Source of the DNA: Micromonospora aurantiaca ATCC 27029
Lineage (GTDB): Bacteria > Actinomycetota > Actinomycetes > Mycobacteriales > Micromonosporaceae
Direction of reading: 5' to 3'
Assembly (NCBI RefSeq): GCF_000145235.1
Contig: NC_014391.1
Coordinates: 1-64,000 of the forward strand
Length of the DNA stretch: 64,000 bases
Below, piece by piece: positions 7,295 through 29,707 of this stretch (its first letter is position 1; every line of letters begins with the position of its first letter). The notes below the pieces were generated by a model, which was given only the letters and a program-made list of their open reading frames with translations, was not told the origin of the DNA and searched no databases. The translations under genes and the position numbers were made by a program.

Positions 7295-7783
7295 GTGACC
7301 GACGGCATCGAGGAGGACCCCCTGGCGCTGGAGCAGCAGGTCTGCTTCGCGCTCTCAGTCGCCGCCCGGAGCGTCGTCGCTGTCTACCGGCCGCTGCTGG
7401 AGCCGATGGGGCTCACCCACCCGCAATACCTGGTGATGCTGGCGCTCTGGCAGCACGCGCCGCTGTCCGGCCGGGATCTGAGCCGGCTGCTCCAACTCGA
7501 CCCGGGCACGCTGTCACCGCTGCTCAAGCGGCTGGAGGCGGCCGGCTACATCCGGCGGGAACGCGACGCCGCCGACGAGCGCAGCCTGGCCGTCTCGCTC
7601 ACCGCCGAGGGGCAGGCGCTGCGGGCGCAGGCCGAGCGGATCCCGCCGGCCATCGTGCAGCGCCTCGGCCTGCCGCTGGCCGACCTGCGGCACCTGCACA
7701 CGGCGCTGACCGAGGTGATCGCGGCAGCCAACCAGGCCACGTCTTCTTCCGGCGCTGCGGCGCCCGGTCAGGCGTCGGCGTAG
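7295..7783 (+). CDS. MarR-family, OhrR-like organic peroxide sensor
   Basis: A 162-residue winged-helix repressor. The N-terminal segment LEQQVCFALSVAARSVVAVY with Cys17, followed by YRPLLEPMGLTHPQYLVMLALW, closely follows the OhrR pattern, in which this cysteine is oxidised by organic hydroperoxides to release DNA. The DNA-binding helix region is LSRLLQLDPGTLSPLLKRLE, and the wing carries RRERDAADERS. The GTG at 7295 follows gaggagg. The usual partner, the peroxidase gene ohr, is not adjacent, so its regulon must include distant targets or it is an OhrR-like sensor with another role. Confidence 0.85.
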   Translation: MTDGIEEDPLALEQQVCFALSVAARSVVAVYRPLLEPMGLTHPQYLVMLALWQHAPLSGRDLSRLLQLDPGTLSPLLKRLEAAGYIRRERDAADERSLAVSLTAEGQALRAQAERIPPAIVQRLGLPLADLRHLHTALTEVIAAANQATSSSGAAAPGQASA

Positions 7784-16056: not shown

Positions 16057-16132
16057 GGGGCCCTAGCTCAACTGGCAGAGCACTGCCTTTGCAAGGCAGG
16101 GGTTAGGGGTTCGAGTCCCCTGGGCTCCACCA
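16057..16132 (+). tRNA. tRNA-Ala (TGC anticodon), element insertion site
   Basis: A 76-base gene including an encoded CCA. Acceptor ggggccc/gggctcc, anticodon stem ctgcc/ggcag with loop TTTGCAA (anticodon TGC), T arm AGGGG-TTCGAGT-CCCCT. Its last 46 bases, from the anticodon loop to CCA, are repeated perfectly at 29662-29707. The integrated element therefore restores the 3' half of the gene on insertion. Confidence 0.97.
16087..16132 (+). repeat. attL core repeat
   Basis: The 46 bases from ctttgcaagg to the CCA end of the tRNA are identical to 29662-29707 in the same orientation. The identity stops exactly after CCA on the right (gc here, ca at the other copy) and before ctttg on the left. 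Confidence 0.95.
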
Positions 16133-16161
16133 GCACTTTCCCCGGTTGATCTCGGTCCCGA

Positions 16162-16185
16162 GTACAGCCAATCGTACAGCCAAGC
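16162..16185. repeat. paired GTACAGCCA arm-type site near attL
   Basis: Two direct copies of GTACAGCCA, 12 bases apart, followed by agc. The same 24-base arrangement occurs near the right end at 29548-29571 with 22 of 24 bases identical. It lies between attL and the integrase stop codon and is probably an integrase or excisionase arm site. Confidence 0.6.
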
Positions 16186-16187
16186 GG

Positions 16188-17339
16188 TCACGCCATGCCC
16201 TCCTCGCCGAGGACCCGGTCGATGGCCGAGGCAGCCTGACGAGCCCGCGCCGGCAGGACGTGCCCATAGGTGTCAGCCGTCATCCGGATCGTGGAGTGCC
16301 CGAGCAGCTCCATCACCGTGCGCAACTCCTCGCCCTGGTCGAGCAGGAACGTGGCGAATGCATGGCGCAGGTCGTGCAGGTGCAGCCAGTCCAGACCGGC
16401 CGCCGCGCGTAGCTGCTCGAAGCGGCGGTTGACGTTCCGCGGCTCCATCGCGGTGCCGATCGTGCTGGCGAAAACCAGCCCGAGATCTGACCACAGCTCC
16501 CCCGCCGCGAGCCGTTCTCTGGCCTGACGGACCCGCTGAGCCTCCAACGCCCGGACCGCCAACGCGGACAGTGGCAGAGGCCGACTCGACCGGTGCGTCT
16601 TCGGCGGCACGAACTCCAAGCCGCGGTCGGTGCGCTGGACCGTCTGGCGAACGAACAGCGCCTTACCGGGCAGGTCGACATCCGACCAGCGCAGGCCCAG
16701 CAGTTCCGCCCGGCGAAGCCCGGTGGCCAGCGCCAGGACGAACAGGGACTCCAACCGGTCCCCGGTGAGCACCGACAGCAGTTGCTTGGCTTCCTCGGGA
16801 GTCAGTGCCCGTCTTTCGACCCGGCCGAGGGCCGGTGGCTTGGCCGCCTTGGCGACGTTGCGCGCGACGAGGTCCATCCGCTCGGCGTCGGCCAGGGCGA
16901 CGCGCAGAACTGCGTGAACCTTGATGATGCTGGCCGGCGCGAGCTTGCCGCGAAGCCCGGTGAGGAACCTCTGTACCTCCCGAGGCGTCAGCCGGTCGAG
17001 CTTCACCCGACCCAACCCCGGCACCAGGTGCTTAGTCACGGCCAGTCGGTAGCGGGCGAGCGTCGACGGCCGAGTGCCGTCGTGAGCCTTCACGTCCCTC
17101 AGCCACTCGGTCAGCCACGCTTCAACGGTCCGAGGCTGCGCGGTGAGGTCGACGCCGAGTTGAAGTTGGCGCCGCAGCTCGTCGCGCTTCCGGACCGCTT
17201 CAGCCTCGCTCTTGGCGTAGACGTACTTCCGCTTCCGCTTCCCGTCGATCCACCCGAGGTCGATGACCGCGGCCCACACGCCCGGCCGCTGCTCGTACAC
17301 CGAGCCTTCCCCGTGAGCCCGACGGCGACGCCCCGTCAT
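16188..17339 (-). CDS. tyrosine site-specific integrase
   Basis: Integrates and, with the excisionase, excises the element at tRNA-Ala. The 383-residue protein has an N-terminal AP2-like arm-binding segment (GSVYEQRPGVWAAVIDLG), a SAM-like core-binding domain (about 70-165), and the catalytic domain with Arg209 in TGLRRAEL, Lys247, His322 and Arg325 in HDLRHAF, His348 in LLGHST and the nucleophile Tyr358 in TADTYGH. All catalytic residues are present. It is the last gene of the minus-strand operon, its ATG overlapping the excisionase stop (ATGA), and its 3' end faces attL. Confidence 0.96.
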   Translation of the reverse strand: MTGRRRRAHGEGSVYEQRPGVWAAVIDLGWIDGKRKRKYVYAKSEAEAVRKRDELRRQLQLGVDLTAQPRTVEAWLTEWLRDVKAHDGTRPSTLARYRLAVTKHLVPGLGRVKLDRLTPREVQRFLTGLRGKLAPASIIKVHAVLRVALADAERMDLVARNVAKAAKPPALGRVERRALTPEEAKQLLSVLTGDRLESLFVLALATGLRRAELLGLRWSDVDLPGKALFVRQTVQRTDRGLEFVPPKTHRSSRPLPLSALAVRALEAQRVRQARERLAAGELWSDLGLVFASTIGTAMEPRNVNRRFEQLRAAAGLDWLHLHDLRHAFATFLLDQGEELRTVMELLGHSTIRMTADTYGHVLPARARQAASAIDRVLGEEGMA

Positions 17340-17533
17340 GCCGCGAACTCCTCATCAGCCGACAGGAACTCGTCAATTGCCGTCAGCGGGATCAGGCGAG
17401 CCCGGCCAGCCTTGATCGACCGCAGTCGCCCGGAGCGCATCAGGACGTAGACGGTGTCCCGGCAGACGCCCAGCAGGGCGGCAGCTTCGGCGGGGCGGAC
17501 GCTTTTGGGAGCCACGGCGTGGGGCTGGATCAT
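17336..17533 (-). CDS. excisionase-like helix-turn-helix protein
   Basis: A 65-residue MerR/Xis-type DNA-binding protein: SVRPAEAAALLGVCRDTVYVLMRSGRLRSIKAG is the winged helix-turn-helix, followed by RLIPLTAIDEFL. This is the usual excisionase of pSAM2-type elements, needed for directional excision by the integrase. Its ATG shares one base with the stop of the replication gene (TGATG), and its stop overlaps the integrase ATG, so the three are translationally coupled. Confidence 0.88.
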   Translation of the reverse strand: MIQPHAVAPKSVRPAEAAALLGVCRDTVYVLMRSGRLRSIKAGRARLIPLTAIDEFLSADEEFAA

Positions 17534-19290
17534 CACGCACGTCCTTCCGGGGAGTCGAGGTCGGATCGGGTCGGAACCGGGATGCCCTGTGTCGCCTTGT
17601 CTCTCGCCGCGAGCAGTGCCGCCTTCCACTGCGCGCGTTGCGACAGCGCCTTGAGGAGCCGGTGTTGCAGCGGCGGTAGGTCCGGGTCGTCGGGTCGGGC
17701 GAGTTCCCAGGCGTACGCGGGTGGGTCGTCCTGGTCGACGGCGTCGGCGTCGGCGGCGCCGACGGTGATGCCGAGGAGGTTGCGGACCCAGGCGCGGGCG
17801 TCGGCCCGGTGGTCGGCGAGGGTCTTCCCGGACCAGTCGCGGGAGACGAGGATGCGCCGGCCGCCGATGCCGAGGGTGGCGCGTTGGTGGACTTTGCCTT
17901 TGCAGCGGCCGGCTTGCAGACGTCCGTGTGCCTTCTTCGGCTGGATGCCGTAGAGCAGCCAGTTCGCGCACCGCTCGTTGCACGGCGTCACCCGCAGCTC
18001 GTGCCACAGCCGGTCGAGGTGGTCCCGCTGCCGGTCGGTATCGGGCTTGTGGCAGTCAGCCGCGGACTTGGTGATGTACTTCGTGATGTAACCGATGGTG
18101 CGGTTGGCGTGAACCGTCCCCGGGGTGACGCCCTCGGCGTGGACCTGCGATCCGAAGCGGACCACGTGAGCCGGTTGCGCGTCAGGGTCAGAGTCGATGA
18201 GATCCAGGGCGTCAGCCCACGAGCGCAGCGGTTCCCGACTGTCGGGGTCGATCCACTCCGCGCGGTCGGCGTCCCACACGGGTGGCCGGTCGAGGGAGTA
18301 GACCGGTTCGTCAGCGGCGGGCCACCAGACCTGGTGGTAGGTGGCGGCGGCTACCTGCCGCAGCACGGCGCGCGGGATGGTGCCGCGGATGGCGAAGTGG
18401 GCGTGTGGCGCGAGGCGCCGTTGGGGCTCGACGCACCCGGCGTACTGCACGTTCCAGCCCACGCAGCGCCGCAGGTTCTGCCAGAACCGGTCCAGGAGGC
18501 GGGCGAAGTGCACCGCGTCCCAGGCTGCGCGCCGGTAGTCGTAGGTGTCGGGGTTGACGGGGGTGCCGTCGGGCAGCACCCGGCCGTAGGTGTCCAGGGT
18601 GAGTGACAGCCACATGGACGGCCGGTGTTCGGTGCCGTCGGGCGCGGTGTAGACCTTCCCCACGGTGCGCGGCTCGACCTTCTTGCGCGGCAGGTCGGGG
18701 GCGTCTTGGCGGCGGCGGGTGGAGCGTTTGCGGCGTGCGTGGTTGTCGTCGTCCTGGTCGTGGGGTGGGGCGACGGCGCCGCGGAGTCCTTCGGCGGCGA
18801 TGGCTTCCTCGACCTCCCCGATCGCCTCATCGATGGCGGGCACCTGGTCGAACTGTGCCGCGCGTTGGGCCTCGTCGCGGGCGAACTCCAGGTGAGCCCG
18901 CAGCAGGATCAACTCACGTTGCGCGTCGGTGGCCGGGTTCGGGCCGGGTGCGGGTTCGTCGGTGCGGTGCCAGCCCTCCCGGATCTGCGTCTGCCGCAGC
19001 CGGCGGGCACGTTTCGCGCACGGCTCGCACTTGTCTTCGCGGGTGGAGCCGCAGGGCAGGTCTACGACTTCGGTGTGGCCGGTGTGCAGGTCGGTGCGGC
19101 GCAGGGTGACCGGGTGCAGGCAGACGCCGTACTCGGCGGCCATCTCCGTGAGCACCTTGCGCGACATCGGCAGCGCGAGACGGGCTGCGCGGGTGCCGGG
19201 AGCCGGGCCGAGGTCAGCCGGGACGGTTACCGGGTTGGTGGTCGGTGGGGCCGGGTCGGGGGTGAGGCCGGGCAGGGTCGGGGCGGTCAT
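17533..19290 (-). CDS. RepSA-like replication initiator
   Basis: A 585-residue protein of the RepSA family that starts rolling-circle replication of excised actinomycete elements. It has a Cys cluster CGSTREDKCEPCAKRARR near residue 80. A Glu/Arg-rich middle follows, then the HUH-type metal motif PHAHFAIRG near 293 and the segment IGYITKYITK near 400, whose tyrosines are candidates for the nicking nucleophile. The start ATG at 19290 has a ggaggtga ribosome site. It follows the small coupled genes and precedes excisionase and integrase. Family assignment is from motifs and context. Confidence 0.88.
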   Translation of the reverse strand: MTAPTLPGLTPDPAPPTTNPVTVPADLGPAPGTRAARLALPMSRKVLTEMAAEYGVCLHPVTLRRTDLHTGHTEVVDLPCGSTREDKCEPCAKRARRLRQTQIREGWHRTDEPAPGPNPATDAQRELILLRAHLEFARDEAQRAAQFDQVPAIDEAIGEVEEAIAAEGLRGAVAPPHDQDDDNHARRKRSTRRRQDAPDLPRKKVEPRTVGKVYTAPDGTEHRPSMWLSLTLDTYGRVLPDGTPVNPDTYDYRRAAWDAVHFARLLDRFWQNLRRCVGWNVQYAGCVEPQRRLAPHAHFAIRGTIPRAVLRQVAAATYHQVWWPAADEPVYSLDRPPVWDADRAEWIDPDSREPLRSWADALDLIDSDPDAQPAHVVRFGSQVHAEGVTPGTVHANRTIGYITKYITKSAADCHKPDTDRQRDHLDRLWHELRVTPCNERCANWLLYGIQPKKAHGRLQAGRCKGKVHQRATLGIGGRRILVSRDWSGKTLADHRADARAWVRNLLGITVGAADADAVDQDDPPAYAWELARPDDPDLPPLQHRLLKALSQRAQWKAALLAARDKATQGIPVPTRSDLDSPEGRA

Positions 19291-19294
19291 CGGG

Positions 19295-19498
19295 TCACCT
19301 CCGGGGGGCGGGGAGCGGGGTGGAGTCGGTGGGGTGTGGCTGGCACGATTGGGGTGTCACCTCAACAGGCGCGGCGGGGCGCCCGAGGCGTGAGCCGAAC
19401 CGGTGGGGGAAAGAGGCGGTGCAGGTGGTAGCCGCACGCGTGGCGCGCGATCGGCGTCCTGAATGAACACCACCGGACCCGTCATACAGAGCCCTCAT
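19295..19498 (-). CDS. possible small coupled ORF
   Basis: A 67-codon frame whose ATG overlaps the stop of the preceding small gene (ATGA) and which ends four bases before the replication-initiator ATG, whose ribosome site it contains. The product is Ser/Thr/Pro/Arg-rich without recognisable domains. The tight coupling argues for translation, but composition is poor and it may only be a spacer read-through. Confidence is low. Confidence 0.35.
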   Translation of the reverse strand: MRALYDGSGGVHSGRRSRATRAATTCTASFPHRFGSRLGRPAAPVEVTPQSCQPHPTDSTPLPAPRR

Positions 19499-19719
19499 GA
19501 CGTGTTCACCTCCGGCAGCTCGAACAGGACAGCGGGTGCAGGGCCGATGGGGGTGGTGCGGGGTGGGCCGGCGTGGCTGGCCCAGCGGCGGGCAGCGGCC
19601 TGGTGGCGGGTGCAGGCGGTTTCGGCGCGGTAGCGGCCGGTGCCGGGAAGGCCGGCTTCGATGAGGGCGGTGGCCCACCGACGGCAGCGCGCGCAGTAGA
19701 CGGGCCGACCGATGTTCAT
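19495..19719 (-). CDS. small CxxC protein of the element
   Basis: A 74-residue protein beginning MNIGRPVYCARCRRWATALI, with a second Cys-x-x-His (CTRH) at about residue 37. Together these could form one zinc knuckle. The remainder is Pro-rich. The start at 19719 (ATG) was chosen over an in-frame GTG at 19737 because the motif then lies at the N terminus. It lies five bases after the upstream membrane-protein gene. Function unknown; similar tiny proteins accompany transfer genes in AICEs. Confidence 0.65.
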   Translation of the reverse strand: MNIGRPVYCARCRRWATALIEAGLPGTGRYRAETACTRHQAAARRWASHAGPPRTTPIGPAPAVLFELPEVNTS

Positions 19720-19724
19720 GGCGG

Positions 19725-20168
19725 TCAGTGCTGGCACCCGGAGCAGTGCAGCCCGCCGCAGGTGACCTTCCGGCGCAGCAGCAACACCGCGAGGACGAGC
19801 AGGACCAGGACCACGCCAACAACGGCGGGCGCGTTGCGCTGAACGGTGTGCGCGACCTGGGTCGCGAGGTAGCCGATCCCGGCCAGCGCGCCGACGGCAG
19901 TGGTGGTGATGGCGGTGGCGGCGATGACCCGGCCGCGGCGCAGCCGACGCACGGGCGGTGGGGTGGTGCGGGCGGTGTTCAGGAACCGCACGGTGACCGT
20001 GACCCGGCCGTCAGCATGCTGGTGGGGGCGGTCGGCGAACATCAGCCGCCCCGACTCCCGCAGCACGGCGAGCGCGGCGGCGACCTCGGCCGGGGTGCCG
20101 ACGATCCGGCGGGTCAGCGTGGTGGGACGGGTCCGGTGGGCGAGAGCGGTACGGGCAGTGGACGACAT
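19725..20168 (-). CDS. small membrane protein with Cys-rich tail
   Basis: A 147-residue protein with two adjacent membrane helices (about residues 83-105 and 115-132) and the tail RRKVTCGGLHCSGCQH, which could bind zinc on the cytoplasmic face. The soluble N-terminal half contains a short alpha/beta region. ATG at 20168 with ggagaa six bases upstream. Its position in the transfer operon suggests a Spd-like role in plasmid spreading between hyphal compartments; that is inference. Confidence 0.7.
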   Translation of the reverse strand: MSSTARTALAHRTRPTTLTRRIVGTPAEVAAALAVLRESGRLMFADRPHQHADGRVTVTVRFLNTARTTPPPVRRLRRGRVIAATAITTTAVGALAGIGYLATQVAHTVQRNAPAVVGVVLVLLVLAVLLLRRKVTCGGLHCSGCQH

Positions 20169-20246
20169 CACGGGTTCTCCTGCTCTGGCTCGATGGGGTG
20201 CTGCGGCGCGGTCGAGGGTGAGCCGGCCACGCCGCAGCGGTCGGGG

Positions 20247-20393
20247 CTATCGGCGGGGGCGGGCGCCGTGGGGCTTGGCGAGGTTGCGCATGTCGGTGTG
20301 CCGCCAGTACGGGTCCTTCACGTCGACGTACTCGATCGGTCCGTTGCACACGGCACACATGTCCGTCAGCCGCGGGTGCTTGGGCTGGGTCAT
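20247..20393 (-). CDS. 48-residue CxxC protein of the element
   Basis: A very small protein (MTQPKHPRLTDMCAVCNGPI at its N terminus) with CAVC followed by two histidines in the segment YWRHTDMRNL, a possible zinc knuckle. The ATG overlaps the stop of the DUF2637 gene (ATGA) and is preceded by ggaggtga. The RHTD motif is shared with the four-Cys protein encoded two genes upstream (20974-21231). Confidence 0.7.
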   Translation of the reverse strand: MTQPKHPRLTDMCAVCNGPIEYVDVKDPYWRHTDMRNLAKPHGARPRR

Positions 20394-20977
20394 CGGGTCA
20401 CCTCCGAGACGATGTGGCCGTTGCGCGGGGCCTGAACGACCGACGACACGAGCGCCGACCGAACCGGAACCGGAGCCGGGGGTGTGAAGACGGGCGCCGG
20501 GGCGGTCGGGACGTTGACGGGTTCGGCGTCGACGGGCTCCCGATCCGGAGCCGGGGTCGGGGTCGGGGCCGGCTTCACCGGGGTGGGGGTGCCGGTGAAG
20601 ACGAGCTTGGTCAGGGCCATGAACGCCAGCGCCGGCAGCGCGGACAGCAGCCACCCCGACGGACTCGCGTCCGCGACGGCGAGCTGCGCGGCGAGGGAGA
20701 AGGACGCGAAGGCAAGCATGAGGAACACCGGGTAGCCGATGGGCTGGCGGTGGCGTCGGCGTCGGCGGATGTCGAGCAGGCACGCGACGGGTACGAGGTC
20801 GGACAGGACGGCGTTGGCCCAGCCGAAGGCGTCGGGGGTGCCGGGCGGGACGTGGCGCATGGTCCAGTCGTGGACGTGGGAGAACGACGCCCACCCGGCG
20901 GTCCCGGCGACGATGAGGAGGATGAGGACCAGCGCGACGGCTTCCAGCCGGTCCGGGCTCGGGCGGGTGGCGGTCAC
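20390..20977 (-). CDS. DUF2637 membrane protein (Spd-like)
   Basis: A 195-residue protein with four predicted membrane helices in its first 130 residues, including AVALVLILLIVAGTAGW, and the DUF2637 hallmark WASFSHVHDWT near residue 29. It ends in a Pro-rich cytoplasmic tail. DUF2637 proteins are frequent in actinobacterial conjugative elements, where Spd proteins help intramycelial spread. The GTG at 20977 overlaps the preceding stop (GTGA) and has GGGAGG seven bases upstream, so I prefer it to the ATG at 20992. Confidence 0.82.
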   Translation of the reverse strand: MTATRPSPDRLEAVALVLILLIVAGTAGWASFSHVHDWTMRHVPPGTPDAFGWANAVLSDLVPVACLLDIRRRRRHRQPIGYPVFLMLAFASFSLAAQLAVADASPSGWLLSALPALAFMALTKLVFTGTPTPVKPAPTPTPAPDREPVDAEPVNVPTAPAPVFTPPAPVPVRSALVSSVVQAPRNGHIVSEVTR

Positions 20978-21231
20978 TTCGGGGCCTCCCATCGGGTGAA
21001 GTCGGTGTGCCGGCAGACCGGGCAGGGGACCTTCCACATGCGGTGCGCGGGCGGGGTCAGCTCGTAGGTCAGGCCGTCGGTCATGTCGGGGTTCCAGATC
21101 TGCACCTCGTCTCGCTGCTGGCACAGGGAGCAGTCGTCGGGGTCGGTGACGAGCTGCACGGGGCCGCCCCAGCCGACGATGAACACGGCGACCGGAAGCG
21201 CGAACGGACCGCGCCCGGGACGGCCGGTCAT
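20974..21231 (-). CDS. four-cysteine zinc-ribbon-like protein
   Basis: An 85-residue protein with an N-terminal hydrophobic stretch (PFALPVAVFIVGWGGPV) and two Cys pairs, CSLC near residue 34 and CPVC near residue 70, spaced as in a zinc ribbon. The ATG at 21231 overlaps the stop of the previous gene (ATGA), and its stop overlaps the next GTG. No known function; it belongs to the run of small Cys proteins between the transfer and replication genes. Confidence 0.72.
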   Translation of the reverse strand: MTGRPGRGPFALPVAVFIVGWGGPVQLVTDPDDCSLCQQRDEVQIWNPDMTDGLTYELTPPAHRMWKVPCPVCRHTDFTRWEAPK

Positions 21232-21416
21232 GCCGCCCACCCCCACGCTTCGGCGTCTTCGGCGGCGATCTCGGCATGCTGGCGCAGCGCCGCGGCGATC
21301 ACGTCGACGGCGTCGGGGTCGGGTGCGCAGTAGGGGCAGGTCTGGTCGGGGTCGGTGTGGAGCAGGTCGAGGCAGGTCCGGCGGATCGGCCGGCGGTTGA
21401 GGCGACGGGTACGCAT
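21228..21416 (-). CDS. 62-residue CxxC protein of the element
   Basis: A small basic-then-acidic protein with TCPYCAPDPDAVDVI near residue 26 and an upstream Cys (RRTCLDLL) that could complete a metal site. The ATG at 21416 has ttggag six bases before it; an in-frame ATG at 21428 lies too close to that site. The stop overlaps the next ATG. Function unknown. Confidence 0.65.
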   Translation of the reverse strand: MRTRRLNRRPIRRTCLDLLHTDPDQTCPYCAPDPDAVDVIAAALRQHAEIAAEDAEAWGWAA

Positions 21417-21443
21417 CACAAGCTCCAAGCAGGCAGGCGGCGG

Positions 21444-21755
21444 TTAGCGGGTGGTGGGGTTGACGTGCACGCGGATCCACTCCGGCGGCTCGCCCGTAGA
21501 GGCCACGGCTTCGGACAGGCAGCGCCACAGCGCCCACGCCTCCGCAGGCGTCAGGTACATCCGCCGACGACCGGCACCCACGGCGATGTAGAGGTCGGCG
21601 TCCGGGGTGACCCGGACCGTGACCGGCACCGACGCCTTGTCGACGTGCGGGGCACGCAGCCGGTAGAAGCGGCGCGGTTCCGAGGTCTGCTGGTCGGGTT
21701 CGTCGGCGTAGGGCACCCGCACCGCAGCGCCCTCGGGGATCTCGTGGTGGGTCAT
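21444..21755 (-). CDS. hypothetical element protein
   Basis: A 103-residue soluble protein with mixed alpha/beta character, including RRMYLTPAEAWALWRCLSEAV near the C terminus, and no known motif. Its ATG overlaps the stop of the transfer ATPase gene (ATGA). This close coupling suggests a role in transfer or in tuning the translocase, but nothing in the sequence shows it directly. Confidence 0.72.
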   Translation of the reverse strand: MTHHEIPEGAAVRVPYADEPDQQTSEPRRFYRLRAPHVDKASVPVTVRVTPDADLYIAVGAGRRRMYLTPAEAWALWRCLSEAVASTGEPPEWIRVHVNPTTR

Positions 21756-23398
21756 CGGGGGTCACTCCCGTTCGTGCTGTTGAGGTCCAGGGCGTTGAGC
21801 AGCGACGGCGGCAACAGCGGAGCGCCCTGCTTCGGCGTCGGCCGGTAGGTGGTGTGCCGCCCGCTGCCGTTGCTGGCGCGAGGCTTGGGCGCCGTGGGCT
21901 GGACAGCGGGCTCCGGCTGCGTCTCCGGCGGAGCGGGGAAGGTCGCGGCCATGTCGCGGATCACGTCGTCGGCCAGGTAGGAGAACCGGACCCGAGCCGG
22001 TTCGGGCTGACCGTCCAGCAGCACGTAGGCCACGCCCTTGCCGGACAGCGGGATCTGATCCGCCAGGGCTCCCCGCTCGCGGGCGCCATCACCGAGCAGC
22101 AGATCGACGTGACCCCGCTCGGTGAGCCCGAGAGCGATGCGGGTCGGGAACAGGTCCCGCACCGAGACGACTTCCTTGCGGGGGTCCTGGGTGGCGGCGA
22201 CGACCAGGACACCGAGCCCGGCACCCTGCGACAGCAGCAACCCCAGCGCCTGCGTGATCCGCTGGCGCACCTCGGAGTCGGGCAGGTAGGCCAGCAGCGC
22301 GGCGATCTCATCGATGACGACGACGATCAGCGGTTCATCGACGGTGGGGGTGTGGACACGGGCTTTGCCGCGCAGGATCTGCTGCCGGGCGCGCATGCGG
22401 GCTACGGCGTCTTCGAGGAGGTCGGCCATGCGGGACCAGTCGTCGTCGACGTAGCGGGAGAACAGGGGCCGGCCGATCGCCAGTTCCATGCCGCCCTTGG
22501 GGTCGATCGCCCACACCCGCACCAGCCCCGATCGGATGCCGGCGGCGAGGGAGCGGAGCAGGGACCAGATGACCGAGCCCTTGCCCATCCGCGTGGCGCC
22601 GCCGATGAGCACGTGCGTGGCCAGGAGCCGGAAGCAGTAGACCGCCAAGTCCTCGCGCAGGCCGAGCGGGAGGGCGGTGAAGTCCGGACGAGCGGGCACG
22701 GGCAGCGGGGCGACGATGCGGGTGAGCGGGTCGCGGCGGATGAACACCAGCCACACGTGGCGGGGCCGGTCGCGGAACTGCACCCGGTCGATCAGCCGCA
22801 GCACGAACGCGAGGCGTCCGGTGCGGTGCGGGATGGGGTGGCGGCGGGTGGAGAAGACGCGGCAGTGCCGGGTACCGAACGAGTACGCCAGGTCCCGGGC
22901 GGCCTTGTGGTACACCTCGGGGTTCTGGCCCTTCGGCATCCGCAGCACCAGTTCGTCGGTGGCGTAGGAGCAGCGCACCGACAACAGCCGCGGCACCACC
23001 TCACCGCCGTCGTACTTCTTCACCAGCCCGCACAGCGACATGACCTCGTGCCACTGCCGCCGGTACACCCACAGGCGCCGCCACACCGAGACGGAACGGA
23101 GGATGACGTGGCGGTGGAACGAGTCACGGCCGCGCCACCACCACACGCCACCCGAGGCGGCGAGGACGACGGCGACCAGGGCGTGAGGCCACCAGCCGTG
23201 CGACCGGTAGACGTTCACGGCGAGCAGGACCAGGGCGACGCCTGGCCAGGCCTGCCAGTGCCGCACTACGAACACCGCGAGCCGGACCACGGCCACGGCG
23301 AGGCGGAACAGGAGGAACAGAACGGTGACGGTCCAGAGCAGCGGCCACGGCGCCGAGATCTGGAACCGGCGGAAGTTGACCAGCGGCGCCCGCACCAT
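21752..23398 (-). CDS. FtsK/SpoIIIE-like conjugative DNA translocase (TraSA-like)
   Basis: The motor that moves double-stranded element DNA into the recipient hypha, the single main transfer protein of AICEs. The 548-residue product has N-terminal membrane helices (about residues 15-100). The FtsK-type ATPase domain follows, with Walker A GGATRMGKGS near residue 265, DPKGGMEL near 295 and Walker B VVVIDEIAALL near 358. The downstream AATQDPRKEVV and LGDGARERG segments match the family. The Pro-rich tail probably reads target repeats. The ATG shares a base with the stop of the small gene before it. Confidence 0.93.
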   Translation of the reverse strand: MVRAPLVNFRRFQISAPWPLLWTVTVLFLLFRLAVAVVRLAVFVVRHWQAWPGVALVLLAVNVYRSHGWWPHALVAVVLAASGGVWWWRGRDSFHRHVILRSVSVWRRLWVYRRQWHEVMSLCGLVKKYDGGEVVPRLLSVRCSYATDELVLRMPKGQNPEVYHKAARDLAYSFGTRHCRVFSTRRHPIPHRTGRLAFVLRLIDRVQFRDRPRHVWLVFIRRDPLTRIVAPLPVPARPDFTALPLGLREDLAVYCFRLLATHVLIGGATRMGKGSVIWSLLRSLAAGIRSGLVRVWAIDPKGGMELAIGRPLFSRYVDDDWSRMADLLEDAVARMRARQQILRGKARVHTPTVDEPLIVVVIDEIAALLAYLPDSEVRQRITQALGLLLSQGAGLGVLVVAATQDPRKEVVSVRDLFPTRIALGLTERGHVDLLLGDGARERGALADQIPLSGKGVAYVLLDGQPEPARVRFSYLADDVIRDMAATFPAPPETQPEPAVQPTAPKPRASNGSGRHTTYRPTPKQGAPLLPPSLLNALDLNSTNGSDPR

Positions 23399-23568
23399 CA
23401 CGCCACCGCCCGGCGGTCGGCGGAACGCTGCTCGGTCCAGGTCTCCGCGCAGACCTTGTGCACCGGCTTACCCGCCGGACTCCGGCAGATCGCAGGCTTA
23501 CCGCAGATGACACACGGGACCGGCTCGCCGGCACCGGCAGTGCGCGTCCAGTCCAGGACAACAGGCAT
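23398..23568 (-). CDS. 56-residue zinc-finger-like protein before the translocase
   Basis: A tiny protein starting MPVVLDWTRTAGAGEPVPCV with Cys pairs CVIC (19-22) and CRSPAGKPVHKVC (28-40), a compact four-ligand set suited to one zinc finger. Its TGA overlaps the translocase ATG as TGATG, the tightest possible coupling. The upstream ribosome site (ggcagg) is modest. No family name is known to me. Confidence 0.72.
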   Translation of the reverse strand: MPVVLDWTRTAGAGEPVPCVICGKPAICRSPAGKPVHKVCAETWTEQRSADRRAVA

Positions 23569-23659
23569 GATGAACCTGCCCTTCCAGGCCGAGAGGGTTT
23601 GAGAGGGCAGCGGGGCGGCCGGCGTTCCTAGGGCATGGGCCGCCCCGCGCCAACGTCAG

Positions 23660-23875
23660 TCAGTAGCCGTGCCGCTTGAGCGCGTCGTACGCGGCGGCCT
23701 TTTCCGCCGGGGTCGACTTCCGCATCGCGCTGTTGAACGCGTCGCGGGCCCTGTCGAACTCCGGGCTGTCGATGTCCCGGTCAGCGGCGTCGGTCTCCTT
23801 CATCCCCAGGTTGATCAGCTTCATCACCTGATCCCGACGCACCGGCTCCGGCTCGGGGCGCTTGCGGCCGAACAT
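23660..23875 (-). CDS. small hypothetical element protein
   Basis: A 71-residue, highly charged helical protein (MFGRKRPEPEPVRRDQVMKL at the start, ending ALKRHGY). It contains no Cys pair or membrane helix. Its ATG shares one base with the stop of the preceding gene (TGATG). The 91-bp gap after it is the only sizeable break in the left half of the operon. Confidence 0.72.
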   Translation of the reverse strand: MFGRKRPEPEPVRRDQVMKLINLGMKETDAADRDIDSPEFDRARDAFNSAMRKSTPAEKAAAYDALKRHGY

Positions 23876-24273
23876 CAGGCAGCCTTCCCGCGCGTCTCGG
23901 CCAGGGTCTTCGGCGCCACCAGACCAGTGGCCCGGTAGGAGAACGCCAGCCGACCGTTGCTGCCCACGTACGGGGTCACCGTCAGGCCCTCGAACTCCAC
24001 CGGCTGGAACGGACCCACCGGCGGCACCGGCTGCACATCCGCCAGGATCTTGATCGCCACCTCACGCGACCGCGACCCCAACTCCGGGTCCATGTCCATC
24101 ACCCGGCACTGCCACACCCGCTGACCCGTCACCTTGTCCTTCGCCGGCGTCCGCTGACGAGTCGCCTCGTTGAAGTCCTGCGCCTCCGCAATCGAGTCCG
24201 GCACGAACACCGCGCCATGCGGAAAGACCGCCTCGAACGGAACCGAGAACCGAGTACCACCACGAAGAGCCAC
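23875..24273 (-). CDS. first gene of the transfer operon, hypothetical
   Basis: A 132-residue beta-rich soluble protein (for example VWQCRVMDMDPELGSRSREV and FEGLTVTPYVGSNGRLAFSYR), resembling conserved proteins found upstream of tra genes in AICEs. The GTG at 24273 is preceded by a full GAAGGAGGAA ribosome site; the frame continues upstream only through the promoter. A minus-strand promoter with an operator between -35 and -10 lies about 105 bp upstream. Function unknown. Confidence 0.78.
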   Translation of the reverse strand: MALRGGTRFSVPFEAVFPHGAVFVPDSIAEAQDFNEATRQRTPAKDKVTGQRVWQCRVMDMDPELGSRSREVAIKILADVQPVPPVGPFQPVEFEGLTVTPYVGSNGRLAFSYRATGLVAPKTLAETRGKAA

Positions 24274-24350
24274 GGATTCCTCCTTCAGCGCAATGCGCTT
24301 TCTGCTCAGCCGGACCCATCCGGTAGAGCTTGTGCACCAGGCTTGACTTG

Positions 24351-24443
24351 CCTGGCTAGCCAAGCGGCATGCACCGAGGCTAGGCCGCCTTGGCTAGTCA
24401 GGTCAAGAGTTGGAGTCGGGGTTTCCTAGCTTGGCTAGCCAGC
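24351..24443. promoter_or_regulatory. triple operator and transfer-operon promoter
   Basis: Three copies of a TTGGCTAG-(T/C)-CA type site lie at 24351-24364 (inverted), 24389-24402 and 24430-24443, about 40 bp apart. On the minus strand TTGACC (24401-24406) and TAGCCT (24377-24382), 18 bp apart, form a good promoter for the transfer operon, and the middle operator fills the space between them. The third copy lies just upstream of the GntR gene, so the repressor probably controls itself as well. Confidence 0.75.
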
Positions 24444-24458
24444 AGGTAACCTTGACGG

Positions 24459-25325
24459 GTGACCGAAGACCTGGACTACCTGGGTGAACTCGACCCCGAT
24501 GACCCGAAGCAGGCGTCACAGCAGATCGCAAACAAGCTCCGGGCCGCGATCCTTACGCGCCGACTGGCGCCGGGCGACAAGTTGCCGTCGCAACCTGAAC
24601 TTGCTTCCCGCTACGGGGTGGCACGGGAGACCATCAAACGAGCGCTAGAGGTGCTCCGCTCAGAACGCCTCATCATCACCCGGCAAGGCAGCGGCGCTTT
24701 CGTTCGCGCCCAGACGCAACGGGCCGTGGAGCTACGACCCCACATCGAAGCAGCGTTCGAGCGAGCCCACGTCACCATCGACTTCGCCGGCTTTTCTGGC
24801 GAGACCCTGCGAGACGCCCTGGCCGAGGTGCTGGACAAGGTCCGCGTTGGTCGCCTCGCCCCGGAGACGATCGCAGTACGTGTGCTCGTCTCCGACATGT
24901 CCGTCCCCATGGCGCTACCCGCCAGGGCTGAGACACAGTCTGACGATCCGGCCGTCCGGGAACGAGCTGACCGCATCACCCGCAGGGCTGTCGACGGCAT
25001 TGTTGATCAGGTCACGGAGCTAGGCGACCTGGGCTTGATTCGTTCGGCCACGGTCGAGGTGCGGATGCATCGCGGTTCACCGCAGTTCAAGCTCTACGTC
25101 CTCAACGGTGAAGAGGTGTTCTTCGGCTTCTACCCCGCCGTCGAACGGACCGTCACCATCAAGGGCGAGCCCACCGCCATCTACGACCTCATGGGCAAGG
25201 ACGTCCCGCTCTTCCACTACGCCGTCACCGACGACGACACCTCGCACGGCACTCAGTTCGTGGAAGCGTCCCGCCAGTGGTTCGACTCCCTATGGTCGAC
25301 CATCGCCTATCGGCACGAAGGATGA
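24459..25325 (+). CDS. GntR-family element repressor (KorSA-like)
   Basis: A 288-residue regulator. Residues 15-85 form a GntR winged helix (ASQQIANKLRAAILTRRLAPG, LPSQPELASRYGVARETIKRAL, then the wing with RQGSGAFVR). The larger C-terminal domain (about 95-280) is not a classic FadR, HutC or MocR effector domain. Its EVFFGFYPAVE and IYDLMGKDVPLFHY segments recur in GntR proteins of actinobacterial elements. Divergent placement opposite the transfer operon across three operator copies argues that it silences transfer, as KorSA does in pSAM2. Its stop overlaps the HAD gene start. Confidence 0.85.
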   Translation: MTEDLDYLGELDPDDPKQASQQIANKLRAAILTRRLAPGDKLPSQPELASRYGVARETIKRALEVLRSERLIITRQGSGAFVRAQTQRAVELRPHIEAAFERAHVTIDFAGFSGETLRDALAEVLDKVRVGRLAPETIAVRVLVSDMSVPMALPARAETQSDDPAVRERADRITRRAVDGIVDQVTELGDLGLIRSATVEVRMHRGSPQFKLYVLNGEEVFFGFYPAVERTVTIKGEPTAIYDLMGKDVPLFHYAVTDDDTSHGTQFVEASRQWFDSLWSTIAYRHEG

Positions 25326-26017
25326 CCGCCAGCCTGGAGCAGCTGTGCCGGGATGTCCGCGCATTGCTGCTCGACTTCGACGGGCCGGTATGCAGCATCT
25401 TCGCCAACTACCCAGCACCACAGGTTGCGAGGGAGCTCCTCGACCTACTAGTGAGCCAGGGCTTGGCGCTCATGAACGAGCTAGCCGAAGAATCGGACCC
25501 CCTGGAGGTGCTGAGGCACACCGGCAGCTCGTCGGATCAGGAGTTGACCCGACTCGTCGAAGACGCCTTGATCGCAGCTGAGGTGAAGGCGGCATCGACG
25601 GCGGAACCGACCGCCTACGGGCGAGAGGTCATCGTGGCCGCGCGCCAGCTGCACCTGCCAATCGCGGTGGTCAGCAACAACTCGCCCCAAGCGGTGGAGG
25701 CCTACTTGAGAGAGCACCGACTGAGCCAGCACGTCGCCAAGACTGTTGGCCGGGCATACGCCGATCCCTCGCGCATGAAGCCGAACCCGACGCCCATCGT
25801 TGACGCGGCGGCATCCCTTGGAGTCGTTCCGGCGCTGTGTGTGTTGGTCGGCGACTCGCTCTCCGACATCGAGGGAGCGAAAGCCGCAGGCACTCGTGTG
25901 ATCGGGTATGCGAACAAGCCCGCAAAGGTGGCGGCGTTCCAAGAGGCGGGTGCGGACGCGGTGGTTACGTCGATGCGGCAAATCGCGCAGGCCCTCATGC
26001 AGGTCGAGGGTCTTTGA
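25322..26017 (+). CDS. HAD-superfamily hydrolase
   Basis: A 231-residue phosphatase-like protein with the HAD motifs: Asp18-Phe-Asp20 in LLLDFDGPVC (nucleophile and acid), the motif II serine in VVSNNSP near 120, a lysine near 152 (RMKPNP) and GDSLSDIEGAKAAG (motif IV) near 180. The cap region inserts after motif I as in phosphoglycolate phosphatase relatives. It is translationally coupled to the GntR repressor (ATGA). The substrate is unknown; an element-encoded phosphatase tied to the repressor could affect signalling or exclusion, which is inference. Confidence 0.85.
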   Translation: MTASLEQLCRDVRALLLDFDGPVCSIFANYPAPQVARELLDLLVSQGLALMNELAEESDPLEVLRHTGSSSDQELTRLVEDALIAAEVKAASTAEPTAYGREVIVAARQLHLPIAVVSNNSPQAVEAYLREHRLSQHVAKTVGRAYADPSRMKPNPTPIVDAAASLGVVPALCVLVGDSLSDIEGAKAAGTRVIGYANKPAKVAAFQEAGADAVVTSMRQIAQALMQVEGL

Positions 26018-26076
26018 TCTTTCCTGGTTGCTTCGTATCGCCGGCAGATGATGACCATGGGGGAGGAACCGCACGG

Positions 26077-26351
26077 ATGGCGACCGCACCGAGTCCGGGC
26101 AGCGACAAGGCCGGCGGGGATGGCCCTGGGTGCTTGGGGCACTCGTGGGGCTTGCCTGCGTCGGCCTTGTTGCTGTGCCCGCGTCCTGGGCGGTGCGGAA
26201 GCAGCTAGAAGCGGAGCGCGGTGAGGCGACGCCGGTTGGCCAACGAGCCGCGGTCGTGGCTGTCACCACTTCCATCTCTGACGCCAGCTGGTCTGTTTCT
26301 CGGCCAGCCGCCCATCGCGTGTCGATAGACGGCTGGCCGAGAGGTGGCTAG
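26077..26351 (+). pseudogene. possible frameshifted small membrane protein
   Basis: An ATG at 26077 has an excellent gggggaggaa ribosome site, but its frame soon becomes Cys/Ser-rich and stops. In the neighbouring frame from about 26115 the translation reads WPWVLGALVGLACVGLVAVP, then ASWAVRKQLEAERGEA, a convincing membrane anchor without any start codon of its own except GTG 26130. A single-base frameshift would join them. Alternatively translation begins at GTG 26130. The C-terminal end runs through a terminator hairpin. Confidence 0.35.
26298..26342. terminator. 13-bp hairpin between convergent small genes
   Basis: TCTCGGCCAGCCG (26298-26310) and CGGCTGGCCGAGA (26330-26342) are perfect complements with a 19-base loop. 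Located between the plus-strand GntR/HAD unit and a minus-strand small gene, it could end transcription from both sides. Confidence 0.6.
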
Positions 26352-26509
26352 CTACCGCACGAGCTGATCAGGCCGGTGATTGCGGTGATCGCCGTAGCTG
26401 AGGCAGCAATGAGCGTGGCTACCTCGCCGATCGTCGGCTTGCGGCGGGCCGAATCGCTGGAATTCCCATCGCGGGAACCACCGAACCTGCGAACGGTCGT
26501 TAGTCTCAT
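26348..26509 (-). CDS. 53-residue single-helix membrane peptide
   Basis: Starts MRLTTVRRFGGSRDG, then a basic linker and a C-terminal hydrophobic helix (IGEVATLIAASATAITAITG) ending ISSCGS. The ATG at 26509 has a purine-rich gagag stretch nine bases upstream. A longer frame to 26560 is less likely. Its A+T content is higher than that of the chromosome. Function unknown; it is too short for a confident call. Confidence 0.45.
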   Translation of the reverse strand: MRLTTVRRFGGSRDGNSSDSARRKPTIGEVATLIAASATAITAITGLISSCGS

Positions 26510-26560
26510 CGTCTTGCGTCTCTCCCTCGCAGTGGGCTGGGCGCAGGGCAGGGGCGGCAC

Positions 26561-27130
26561 TCGCGGACCAAGCAGGGTGCCGCCCCCTTCTGCACGGGCT
26601 GTGTCCGCCCGCTTAATGTGAAACGAAACGACCGTGCAAAAAGTGATTGGCCAATCAGGGCGAATTTTCGGGGTGTTTTGCCCGTTTTTATTACCACTTA
26701 GCGTTATTCGGCAGAGCGTCTATCAGGCGGGTGCAAGTTGCATATGGCAAAGATGATCTTCGCATGAGGGGTAACGGAAAGTAGTTTTCTGGCGACCAAT
26801 GGCTAATGAGGCGGGGAGCCAGTGGGTGACCACATGCGAAGCGTCAGCGCCCGAGGAGGTAGTGCCGCCATTTCCTCTGACATAGCCCCCGGAGACAGCC
26901 GGGAGAGATGGGTGCCGTGAGAACCTTGTCCCCTGGAGCGCTGTCCGTGATCTGTTGCCGAATTGGCCTGTACTAGATCAAGCGCGCTCCGCGCGGCGCG
27001 GGCCGGGGCGCGGCAAACGGCTCCTGCGGAGCCGCCGCCCCGGCCGCCTACGGCGCCGGGGCGGAAAATCAGCCAGCCCGAACCCCACGCCCCGCCCCGC
27101 GCGTCACACCTGGGTCAGTGAAGTGACCCG
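26561..27130. other. non-coding structured segment of the element
   Basis: No credible gene. The left part (26620-26800) is unusually A+T-rich and contains the perfect palindrome TGATTGGCCAATCA (26644-26657). The right part holds a strong compound hairpin at 27001-27045, with arms of about 14 bp around an inner ggctcc-TGC-ggagcc hairpin. A further inverted repeat, gggtca-GTGAAG-tgaccc, lies around 27112-27129. Such layered structure in a pSAM2-type element is what one expects of a replication origin or transfer locus, but neither is proven. Confidence 0.5.
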
Positions 27131-27412
27131 GTGACGAGTCCCGAAGGACGACCAGGGCCAGGCGAACACGCTCCACCCGGTTCCGACGATCCCCAAAGCA
27201 GCACGAGATCCGGCGGGCCAACCGCGGCGGACGAAGTTGCCGAACGGTTCCGCACGGTCGCCCAGGCCGCAGGGTGGGGAAGGGGTGGAGGTGGGTGTGG
27301 GGGTGGTGGGGTGAGGGAGAGGGTGGGGTTAGAGATGTGCCTCCGGCGGGGGCCAGACGACTCCGAGATGGAGTTGCCGAACGGTTCCGGTCAGAGGGTG
27401 GTTGAGGTGGGA
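27131..27412. other. non-coding stretch with G-rich tract
   Basis: Holds an 18-bp direct repeat (AGTTGCCGAACGGTTCCG at 27235-27252 and 27372-27389). Between the copies, at 27271-27329, lies a G-rich tract with many GGG/GGGG runs on the plus strand. Open frames here translate to low-complexity sequence and depend on the palindrome that follows, so I see no gene. Confidence 0.5.
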
Positions 27413-27557
27413 TGCCATCCCGCCAGCCACCGACCCAGGCAAGCCGAGCAGACCAGGGTCAGGGTGACAAGGTCGTACGTCCGGTAGGGCGCTCCACCTT
27501 GTCACCCTGACCCTGGTCTGCTCCACGATGTGTGGGTCGGCGGCAGACGGGATGGCA
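27413..27557. repeat. 145-bp imperfect palindrome beside darG
   Basis: Inner arms 27446-27473 and 27496-27523 are perfect 28-base complements around a 22-base loop. Outer arms 27413-27436 and 27534-27557 match at 21 of 24 positions, separated from the inner ones by about 10-base internal loops. It ends 27 bp from the darG stop. It may be a miniature inverted-repeat element or a very large terminator; no target-site duplication is obvious. Confidence 0.8.
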
Positions 27558-27584
27558 AGCTTCGGTAGTGGCTGTGAGGCTGCG

Positions 27585-28739
27585 CTACACGCCTACCAAC
27601 TCGTTCGCAGCGTCTGCAATCGAATCATCCGGCTCGACCTCAATCCAGCGTTGGATGGCCAATTGTACGACCGCCTGCTCAACATCTTCCCGACGGATTG
27701 GAGGCTGACGACGCACCTTCCACTTCAGGACTGCATCCACCACCTCCTCAGCTGTGGGAGTCCGCCCAAGCTTATTCCGTAAAGCATCTGCTGCGTAATG
27801 GACCGAGGCGGCTACTTCGGCCCGGCTAGGGTTGAACCGCGATATAAGGTCCACCACACGCGATATGCGGTCTTCCCATCCGTCCAGTTCACCTATAGCC
27901 GATGCTCGTGCATCGGTAAAGGTCGGGCCCACCTTCACCTCGAAGGCCCGCCCATTCTGCTGCTCTTTCACTAGGCCGTTGTTCTGGAGCCTTCCAACAA
28001 CTCTCTTCAAGTCGGCGGCGTACGGGCCGTAGCTAGCAGCTTGGTAATCTAGGCCGGTAGGTAGGCCGGCTGCAGTGGCGAAGTAAGCCAGTTTTTGGAA
28101 CATGATCCGACCAACAGGCCAGTGGAACGGCTCTTGCTCGATCCGATGCAGGATTTCGACAAGGGCAATCGTTGCAGGATCCACATATCGGGCCTCATGT
28201 GCCGACGCCACTCCACTTGGAGGTGACGCCTGCGGGTTGAATAGAGCGAGTTGCGCCTGATCGGGTTCGACATCGTGGGGGACGTAGAGTTCAACCGGGA
28301 TGCCAAACGTGCTCAAGTGGCGGTACAGGGTTGGACCCACAACTGACCATTCGAGCTGACCATTTCCGCAGCCTAGCGGTGGGACAGCAATCGAGCGCAC
28401 GCCCCACTTGGATAGATTGCTGCGCAGGTGCTCAAGGCCATGTTCGATGTCCTCTAGCCTGCTTACAGATCGCCAGTGCTGCTTGGTGGGGAAGTTGATA
28501 ATCAACTTCTCTTCGTCTTGATATGCGTACGGCTTCCCAAGTTGCACGAGGCCCTGATCGCATCGTCTGACGTAGTCCCGGAACATGTTGGGGTAACGCT
28601 TCTTGAACGCGAGCGCTATGCCCTTTCCCATGATGCCCACGCAGTTTACGGTGTTGACTAGGGCGTGAGCTTTAGAGTTCAGGAGATCCCCCCGCTTCAA
28701 CTGAACGAGGTCTCCGTCCTTGCTAGGCAAAGAAGACAT
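27585..28739 (-). CDS. darG: DarG antitoxin: DNA ADP-ribosylglycohydrolase with C-terminal toxin-binding region
   Basis: Removes ADP-ribose from DNA and neutralises DarT. In this 384-residue protein residues 8-160 are a macrodomain with the signature NTVNCVGIMGKGIALAFK (29-46). The segment INFPTKQHWR includes Lys86, corresponding to the catalytic lysine of DarG, and PPLGCGNGQLEW closes the site. The C-terminal region (about 190-384) contains a helical domain (FQKLAYFATAAGLPTG, ASYGPYAADL) like the DarG toxin-binding part. ATG 28739 lies inside the last codons of darT (17-bp overlap) with ribosome site GGGGAGGTG. Confidence 0.92.
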   Translation of the reverse strand: MSSLPSKDGDLVQLKRGDLLNSKAHALVNTVNCVGIMGKGIALAFKKRYPNMFRDYVRRCDQGLVQLGKPYAYQDEEKLIINFPTKQHWRSVSRLEDIEHGLEHLRSNLSKWGVRSIAVPPLGCGNGQLEWSVVGPTLYRHLSTFGIPVELYVPHDVEPDQAQLALFNPQASPPSGVASAHEARYVDPATIALVEILHRIEQEPFHWPVGRIMFQKLAYFATAAGLPTGLDYQAASYGPYAADLKRVVGRLQNNGLVKEQQNGRAFEVKVGPTFTDARASAIGELDGWEDRISRVVDLISRFNPSRAEVAASVHYAADALRNKLGRTPTAEEVVDAVLKWKVRRQPPIRREDVEQAVVQLAIQRWIEVEPDDSIADAANELVGV

Positions 28740-29307
28740 TGGCGAACACCTCCCCTCGCAGGCCAGCCGCATGGCACGAAATCACATGTGACTGTCGAAT
28801 CACTTTTGCCTTGTCGATATAGCTTGGGTCTACACAGTTTGGAACTAGCACCTCCGCGCACCGAGCTCGCTTACGCTCGATGTAGTCCCACCTGTCGCTA
28901 CTAGTCCAAGAGTGTGCATATACCAGCCCTTCATCTAGTATAGCAATTCCCCCCGGGGATGCAGCAAACCGGGTACCATCAGATGCTGCGTTTCCGTCAG
29001 TGATCACTACCCCTGGTAGATCCAGGATCGACGGATTTACACAAACGACGGCCAGCGGCGTCCCGTTGCCCTTTATCCGATACATCATCGGATTTCGAGC
29101 GTCGAAGTACAGGTTGGCATAATCGTGAAGTTGCATCCCGCCTGGGACTCTCTTCTGCCGTCTGCGCGATTGCACGTCCTCGTCCGCTACTGAGAGGTGT
29201 GGGAGACGTCGTGCTGCGTTGTGACTCAGGATGCCATGCCGCAACACCGACTCTAGGTTGGAGATCGGTGTAATGAAGTGAAGCTCCTGTACCCGGCCTC
29301 TCTCCAT
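28723..29307 (-). CDS. darT: DarT toxin: DNA ADP-ribosyltransferase
   Basis: Attaches ADP-ribose to single-stranded DNA, blocking replication; the pair acts as toxin-antitoxin and in phage defence. The 194-residue protein has the NAD-binding start LHFITPISNLESVLRHGIL, the ARTT-loop segment with LHDYANLYFDARNPMMYR (60-77) and the catalytic Glu152 in CAEVLVPN, matching DarT. The ATG at 29307 was chosen because it places the HFIT motif at residue 10; the frame stays open further upstream, and the ribosome site is weak, as expected for a toxin. It is transcribed before darG. Confidence 0.9.
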   Translation of the reverse strand: MERGRVQELHFITPISNLESVLRHGILSHNAARRLPHLSVADEDVQSRRRQKRVPGGMQLHDYANLYFDARNPMMYRIKGNGTPLAVVCVNPSILDLPGVVITDGNAASDGTRFAASPGGIAILDEGLVYAHSWTSSDRWDYIERKRARCAEVLVPNCVDPSYIDKAKVIRQSHVISCHAAGLRGEVFANVFFA

Positions 29308-29661
29308 CCCATCACTCCGTTTCGCGTCCGTAGGCAGGTTCGAGGGATCGTGCCACGCGGGTGTGACAACTTGCCGAACACCTGTACTAGCGCCCCGCGT
29401 CGGGGGGAGCAGGCGGCGGGTACGGCAGGTTGTCGCCCGGGTTGATGGTCGATCAGAACACGGACTGCCACCGGGCACAACGGTCAGATGGAGGGTGTAG
29501 CGACGGGTCTGCGAGGAGCCGGCGGAGCTACGGATCAGAAGGTGGCTGTACAGCCATCCGTACAGCCAAGCCGGCCGACGGAGCCAGCCAAGGGCCGACG
29601 GCAGGCGACAGAGCGAGCAGGTCAGGGGCAGTCACCGACGCTGGCCGACAGCAGGCTTGAT
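29308..29661. other. right-end spacer of the element
   Basis: The stretch between darT and attR has no believable gene. It should hold the darT-darG promoter, which I could not place, and it contains the paired GTACAGCCA arm site at 29548-29571. Confidence 0.5.
29548..29571. repeat. paired GTACAGCCA arm-type site near attR
   Basis: Two direct GTACAGCCA copies 12 bases apart followed by agc, matching 22 of 24 bases of the site at 16162-16185 and in the same orientation. It lies 90 bp inside attR. Confidence 0.6.
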
Positions 29662-29707
29662 CTTTGCAAGGCAGGGGTTAGGGGTTCGAGTCCCCTGGGC
29701 TCCACCA
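29662..29707 (+). repeat. attR core repeat (tRNA-Ala 3' fragment)
   Basis: A perfect 46-base copy of the tRNA-Ala 3' half, from the anticodon loop to CCA. It lacks the 5' half and is not a functional tRNA gene. It marks the right end of the element. Confidence 0.95.

Follow-up and report, generated by a model that had tools for sequence, protein, structure and literature searches.

Plasmid TraB proteins recognise 8-bp repeats (PMC4170104); for pSAM2, an actinomycete integrative and conjugative element (AICE), no clt is described (PMC9513070). Among the proteins encoded around such translocases, SpdB2 of pSVH1 has TraB and Spd79 as interaction partners, and SpdA2 of pIJ101 gives zinc-finger motif hits and binds DNA at a palindrome (PMC4170104). 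The pMR2-type Tra and RepSA(MR2) proteins form named clades (PMC3218068). Here we analysed the first 64,000 nucleotides of contig NC_014391.1 of Micromonospora aurantiaca ATCC 27029 (the window), which contain a 13.6-kb AICE of the pMR2 type, bordered by 46-bp repeats and inserted in a tRNA-Ala gene. Its transfer region encodes six small proteins with Cys pairs, here called p56, p62, p85, p48, p147 and p74. We propose, with a probability of roughly 40%, that the six are real small genes with predicted metal sites in the transfer module of this element, p56 acting as a partner of TraB and the others as Spd-type proteins.

Six small Cys-pair genes in the transfer module

The initial annotation had placed six small Cys-pair proteins between the translocase and the initiator genes, in a chain of overlapping genes. 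All six were found, on the minus strand (Table 1), and the position is correct for five of them; the p56 gene lies upstream of traB. They are richer in Cys than expected by chance: Cys makes up 19 of their 472 residues (4.03%), as compared with 17 of 2018 (0.84%) in seven further proteins encoded by the element. Given its own composition, each of the six would contain one or more CxxC with a chance of 0.04–0.19, and the product of the single-protein chances is ~3e-7. The chain is likewise present, with overlaps at six of the 11 junctions between the regulator gene and rep, five by 4 nt (p56/traB, traB/p103, p62/p85, p85/spdB and spdB/p48) and one by 1 nt (pA/p71). Gaps separate p71 from p56 (91 nt), p103 from p62 (27 nt), p48 from p147 (78 nt), p147 from p74 (5 nt, taking ATG 19719 as the p74 start in preference to GTG 19737) and p74 from rep (204 nt).

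The six reading frames behave as coding sequences. Their GC content at third codon positions (GC3) is 0.82–0.94, and the median ratios of nonsynonymous to synonymous substitution rates (dN/dS) over related loci L034–L041 are 0.27 for p56, 0.34 for p62, 0.36 for p147 and 0.35 for p74, and 0.40 for p85 and 0.35 for p48 with a single relative each; shadow frames gave 0.99–1.78 where computable. Comparison with two more distant loci, L048 and L049, at which synonymous sites are strongly diverged, raises the values to 0.3–0.9. A further open reading frame (ORF), p68 (19295–19498), was rejected as a gene: a search of the other 51 loci gave nothing at E ≤ 1e-3, and its GC3 is 0.73. In L034 and some other relatives, rep follows p74 with no such interval, and the ~200 nt that hold p68 here are probably an insertion.

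For the comparison of related elements, 40 stretches were taken, the first 20 from the top of the relatives list and the remaining 20 hand-picked lower down, and occurrence was scored over 52 TraB loci, window included and L045 and L046 (partial TraB) excluded. Loss of the Cys pairs in related elements had been named as a result that would refute the initial annotation; the pairs are conserved. The C, C, H, C set of p56 is kept in all 10 rows, the C, C, C, H set of p74 in 8 of 8, the CxxC of p62 in 12 of 12, and the four Cys of p85 and two Cys of p48 in 2 of 2; in p147, the C, H, C, C and H positions are kept in 8, 9, 9, 9 and 8 of nine sequences, respectively. The first pair of p62 is C-x4-H in nine of ten aligned rows and CxxC in L042, which would exchange one ligand and leave four. 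In p56, 9 of 10 sequences retain an additional Cys that the four-ligand set does not require. Four conserved Cys/His ligands, as in zinc fingers, are thus found in p56, p74, p62 and p85 (the last with one relative), while p48 has one CxxC and its full ligand set was not identified. With conserved ligands, coding frames, overlaps and conserved order, the description of the six as small metal-binding proteins of an AICE transfer unit holds as a prediction.

That the six are redundant adaptors, as had also been suggested, is not supported: they differ in ligand spacing, the comparison revealed no family common to them, and two membrane helices are likely in p147 (read by eye). None of them scored above the curated cut-offs in NCBIfam, Pfam or PHROGs, the best match being phrog_11565 for p48 (E 0.001). 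The RHTD motif said to be common to p85 and p48 does not hold up, since the only relative of p85, in L039, reads CRPETF at that position. From their low counts (Table 1), the Cys-pair proteins are for the most part restricted to elements of Micromonospora and a small number of relatives, in contrast to the widely distributed backbone; a profile search of 150 genomes of the host family found p62 in five and p74 in seven (two of them weak partial matches).

The content of the module also varies. Between p62 and spdB, p85 is present in the window and L039, and a membrane protein in L034, L035, L036, L038, L040 and L042; the L034 and L035 versions of this membrane protein have a Cys-rich extension. 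Near the p48/p147 position, the pMR2-like element in L040 encodes (7509–7670) a 53-aa CTGC protein with a later His and Cys. Between p103 and spdB in L052, L053, L055, L057, L058 and L060–L070, p62 is replaced by a Cys-free protein of ~62–70 aa (GPxDQxAAAL...RIRIxLTIR), to which the N-terminal domain of p147 may be related (44.6% over 25 columns).

The gene directly before traB

The strongest point is the recurrence of a gene for a tiny four-ligand protein directly before traB, and it is the part worth following. Such an ORF occupies this slot in 48 of 78 related loci, comprising 40 of the 52 loci above and 8 of 26 from other families (of 27 taken, L094 was dropped because its contig begins inside TraB). 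No such ORF was found on the opposite strand (0/78), and random windows of the same size, drawn from other parts of the loci, gave a mean of 1.3% and a maximum of 5.1% (200 draws). At 37 of the 48 occupied slots, the stop of the slot gene and a start of the TraB frame overlap by 4 nt; at three the two touch. L035 was scored as a miss although p56 is present, because its start codon reads AGG. L107, L109 and L112 have not one but two or three tiny ORFs with four ligands each, in series before traB. No description of the slot was found in the parts of the literature searched, the pMR2 paper lying outside the scope of that search.

After trimming of false long N-terminal extensions, the slot proteins fell into five classes by single linkage (30, 9, 6, 2 and 1 members), of which the largest was formed at a lax threshold and looks like at least three types. 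Profile alignment with hhalign joined classes 1 and 4 at 72%, with every other pair at ≤32%. When the slot labels were placed on a TraB tree of 77 different rows (L043 and L051 being the same locus), they required 10 changes, compared with 37.5 in shuffles, a contrast to which near-copies contribute. The p56-type and CxxC...CxxC-type slots share one well-supported TraB clade, and L042, which has CxxC...CxxC together with an RDARGRF tail, is basal to the p56 side. We infer that the variation reflects replacement, or strong drift, within one functional slot.

The translocases themselves appear to lack a recognition domain. In the window TraB and seven AICE relatives, no winged-helix or other DNA-recognition model was matched at E ≤ 0.1, whereas the winged helix was found in the positive control, pIJ101 Tra (MarR_2 at 594–631); the C-terminal winged helix that marks pIJ101-type TraB is thus absent from the eight AICE proteins examined. 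Unlike pIJ101 Tra, they may require another component for DNA contact, and this makes p56 a candidate partner in DNA loading or assembly. Tails after the FtsK core span 4–117 aa across the 78 loci. Tails of 79–117 aa occur in 8 of the 30 loci with no slot gene, as against ≤76 aa in the 48 with one, and look low in complexity. The idea that slot-less loci compensate by a longer, winged-helix TraB was not supported, as the two that were tested, L093 and L103, had no winged helix.

Beyond the element, p56 defines a protein family present on AICEs and Streptomyces plasmids, whose members are hypothetical or unannotated in 15 plasmid records among the matches listed. Its pattern is C19-x2-C22-x14-H37-x2-C40 (LDW..PCxxCxxPA..PxHxxC in the family); L5, D6, C19, C22, P25, A26, P35, H37 and C40 are invariant in 13 rows, and most other columns drift. 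Profile matches were obtained in 11 of the 150 host-family genomes and 19 of 345 genomes of the class, and not in phages (E ≤ 0.01). The 13-row alignment gave weak matches only in Pfam (best E 0.034), and the p56 sequence gave a best E of 1.5 against solved structures. The predicted fold, a hairpin followed by helix 38–55 with HxxC at the helix start, may resemble a minimal treble clef at the modest confidence of the model, and adds little to the argument.

Roles proposed for p56 and the other small proteins

We hypothesize that p56 is a partner of TraB, most likely of zinc-knuckle type, which would bind TraB while both proteins are being made from their overlapping genes. It may help to load the TraB hexamer onto the element DNA or at its membrane site, and so supply the contact that the short, winged-helix-less TraB lacks; by analogy with the DNA-binding SpdA2 of pIJ101, a coupled zinc protein could be the source of such a contact. 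The other five would be Spd-type accessories of spread within the mycelium, p147 keeping its Cys tail beside the membrane. A multi-part complex of these proteins, as first suggested, is compatible with the data, the precedent being SpdB2 of pSVH1 with TraB and Spd79. It is doubtful that FtsK-type motors have detached DNA recognition in many actinomycete elements, short TraBs being combined with exchangeable, translationally coupled zinc microproteins whose swapping would re-tune the DNA or membrane site. The slot gene is a tangible, testable candidate: it overlaps traB, and its class is constant inside TraB clades and changes from one clade to another.

Several observations weigh against the partnership of p56 with TraB. 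Thirty of the 78 loci have no four-ligand slot ORF, and as their TraBs are mostly equally short, either another factor does the work at those loci or none is required. L060, L062 and L067 have no small coding-like ORF in the slot position, and no slot ORF was found in the sample tested of f17 and f18, two groups of host-family rank within the class, although p56 relatives precede TraB at four other f18 sites. The RDARGRF tail is retained with the pairs lost in five loci, four of them distinct (L043/L051, L044, L049 and L050). Away from the element, 21 of 29 other distinct p56-relative sites (L119–L125 and L127–L150, with L147 merged with L128 and L150 with L145) have no TraB-like frame within flanks of ~1.5 kb. 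The remaining eight, which speak for the partnership and are a lower bound given such short flanks, have one upstream (L119, L121, L122 and L124) or downstream (L127, L128, L129 and L135). On Streptomyces plasmids, the p56 relative comes immediately after a gene annotated as GGDEF in five of the seven regions examined (seven among 30 matches listed), with that gene one further away in another and not annotated in the last, which argues against an exclusive TraB role. The AlphaFold2 model of p56 is of modest confidence (predicted local distance difference test score of 69.6), with weak fold matches, some to zinc fingers (best Z 3.6), and nothing at Z ≥ 5 in a VIA-align search; for p74 no usable model was obtained. 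AlphaFold2 cannot separate metal-binding Cys sets from other Cys sets (PMC11241148).

The plasmid sites bear on the alternative that survives best, and which is a real contender: the six would be general plasmid accessory zinc proteins with partners and tasks of their own (regulation, entry or stability), lying in the transfer unit because compact elements crowd their genes onto one transcript, with the coupling to traB serving dosage. It accommodates the 21 sites with no TraB-like frame and the 76 plasmid records (73 from Streptomyces) with a p56 relative, which in most of the regions examined follows a GGDEF gene. However, several sequence classes fill the slot before traB, an outcome not expected if a single family had been packed there by chance, and the 4-nt overlap recurs at most of the occupied slots. 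In four of the seven plasmid regions (L151, L153, L155 and L156), the p56 relative overlaps the end of the annotated GGDEF-domain gene by 4 nt; three of the four also have, close by, a gene annotated as 'RRQRL motif-containing zinc-binding protein'.

It is rather unlikely that p56 and p74 are small zinc-finger DNA-binding regulators of transfer or stability, for which SpdA2 of pIJ101, with its motif hits and palindrome, would be the model (PMC4170104). No known DNA-binding family was matched, although no search was made for palindromic target sites. Two candidate regulators are already nearby, namely pA and a gene at 24459–25325 that we take to be GntR-like. It is very improbable that the Cys pairs are accidental or that the frames are non-coding: shadow frames here do contain CxxC by chance and p68 is not conserved, but the dN/dS and GC3 values, the retained ligands and the constant gene order refute this for p56, p62, p147 and p74, the cases of p85 and p48 resting on one relative each.

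The element and described systems

AICEs excise and move between cells as double-stranded DNA. The AICE assignment is supported by a RepSA initiator together with a single FtsK-type Tra (PF20199, PF01580 and similarity to pMR2 Tra), and by integration in the tRNA-Ala gene between perfect direct 46-nt copies, which start at 16087 and 29662, 13,575 nt apart, and delimit an element of 16087–29707. Of 13 named TraB relatives, the eight nearest come from Micromonospora. The SpdB-like protein matches PF10935 (DUF2637) with an E-value of 0.0075 and 16.6 bits, below the curated cut-off of 22.8. The small protein under the strongest constraint is p103, for which Pfam and NCBIfam gave nothing above cut-off. 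Micromonospora sp. RP3T carries two closely related elements (L034 and L035) on different contigs.

Table 1. Features of the M. aurantiaca element, with occurrence in the 52 TraB loci (window included)
Feature	Coordinates	Strand	Description	Loci (of 52)
att repeat, left	16087..16132	+	3' end of tRNA-Ala	
integrase	16188..17339	-	position matches annotated site-specific integrase of pMR2	
RepSA-type replication initiator (rep)	17533..19290	-	PF20199, E 2e-99	
p74	19495..19719	-	74 aa; CARC...CxRH	8
p147	19725..20168	-	147 aa; tail CGGLHCSGCxH	9
p48	20247..20393	-	48 aa; single CxxC (CAVC)	2
SpdB-like membrane protein	20390..20977	-	195 aa; weak DUF2637	47
p85	20974..21231	-	85 aa; CSLC/CPVC (CxxC...CxxC)	2
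p62	21228..21416	-	62 aa; CPYC; C-x4-H-x6-C-x2-C, then likely helix	12
p103	21444..21755	-	103 aa; no Cys pair; dN/dS 0.13; 4-nt overlap with traB	42
TraB	21752..23401	-	549 aa; FtsK/SpoIIIE-type DNA translocase; PF01580, E 1.9e-9	
p56	23398..23568	-	56 aa; CVIC; gene directly before traB	10
p71	23660..23875	-	small protein, no Cys	5
pA	23875..24273	-	regulator-like; 'transcriptional regulator' at equivalent pMR2 position	51
att repeat, right	29662..29707	+	far end of element	

Among systems of other origin, the C(P)XCG microproteins of Haloferax volcanii resemble the small proteins described here in size (<70 aa), Cys pairs and predicted zinc fingers, and differ in being chromosomal and archaeal; 9 of 14 that were purified bound zinc, which counsels caution for the sites predicted here (PMC11241148). 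The closest described element is pMR2 of Micromonospora rosaria (NC_006910), which has the same order (regulator-traB-p103-p62-...-RepSA-xis-int), a TraB 80% identical to that of the window and a p56 75% identical, the latter with no annotated feature at its position. Its spdB region differs: none of p85, p48, p147 and p74 has a match there, and a 53-aa protein with CTGC is encoded instead. In pIJ101, a 56-aa protein with C-x4-C...H-x-H is reminiscent of the small Cys proteins, but the gene before tra is divergent, there is no small slot gene, and tra encodes a winged helix. The Spd proteins of pIJ101 and pSVH1 are likewise the products of small, diverse genes adjoining tra, of the kind (spread genes) whose loss makes pocks smaller, and the position of the genes in the M. 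aurantiaca element fits this pattern.

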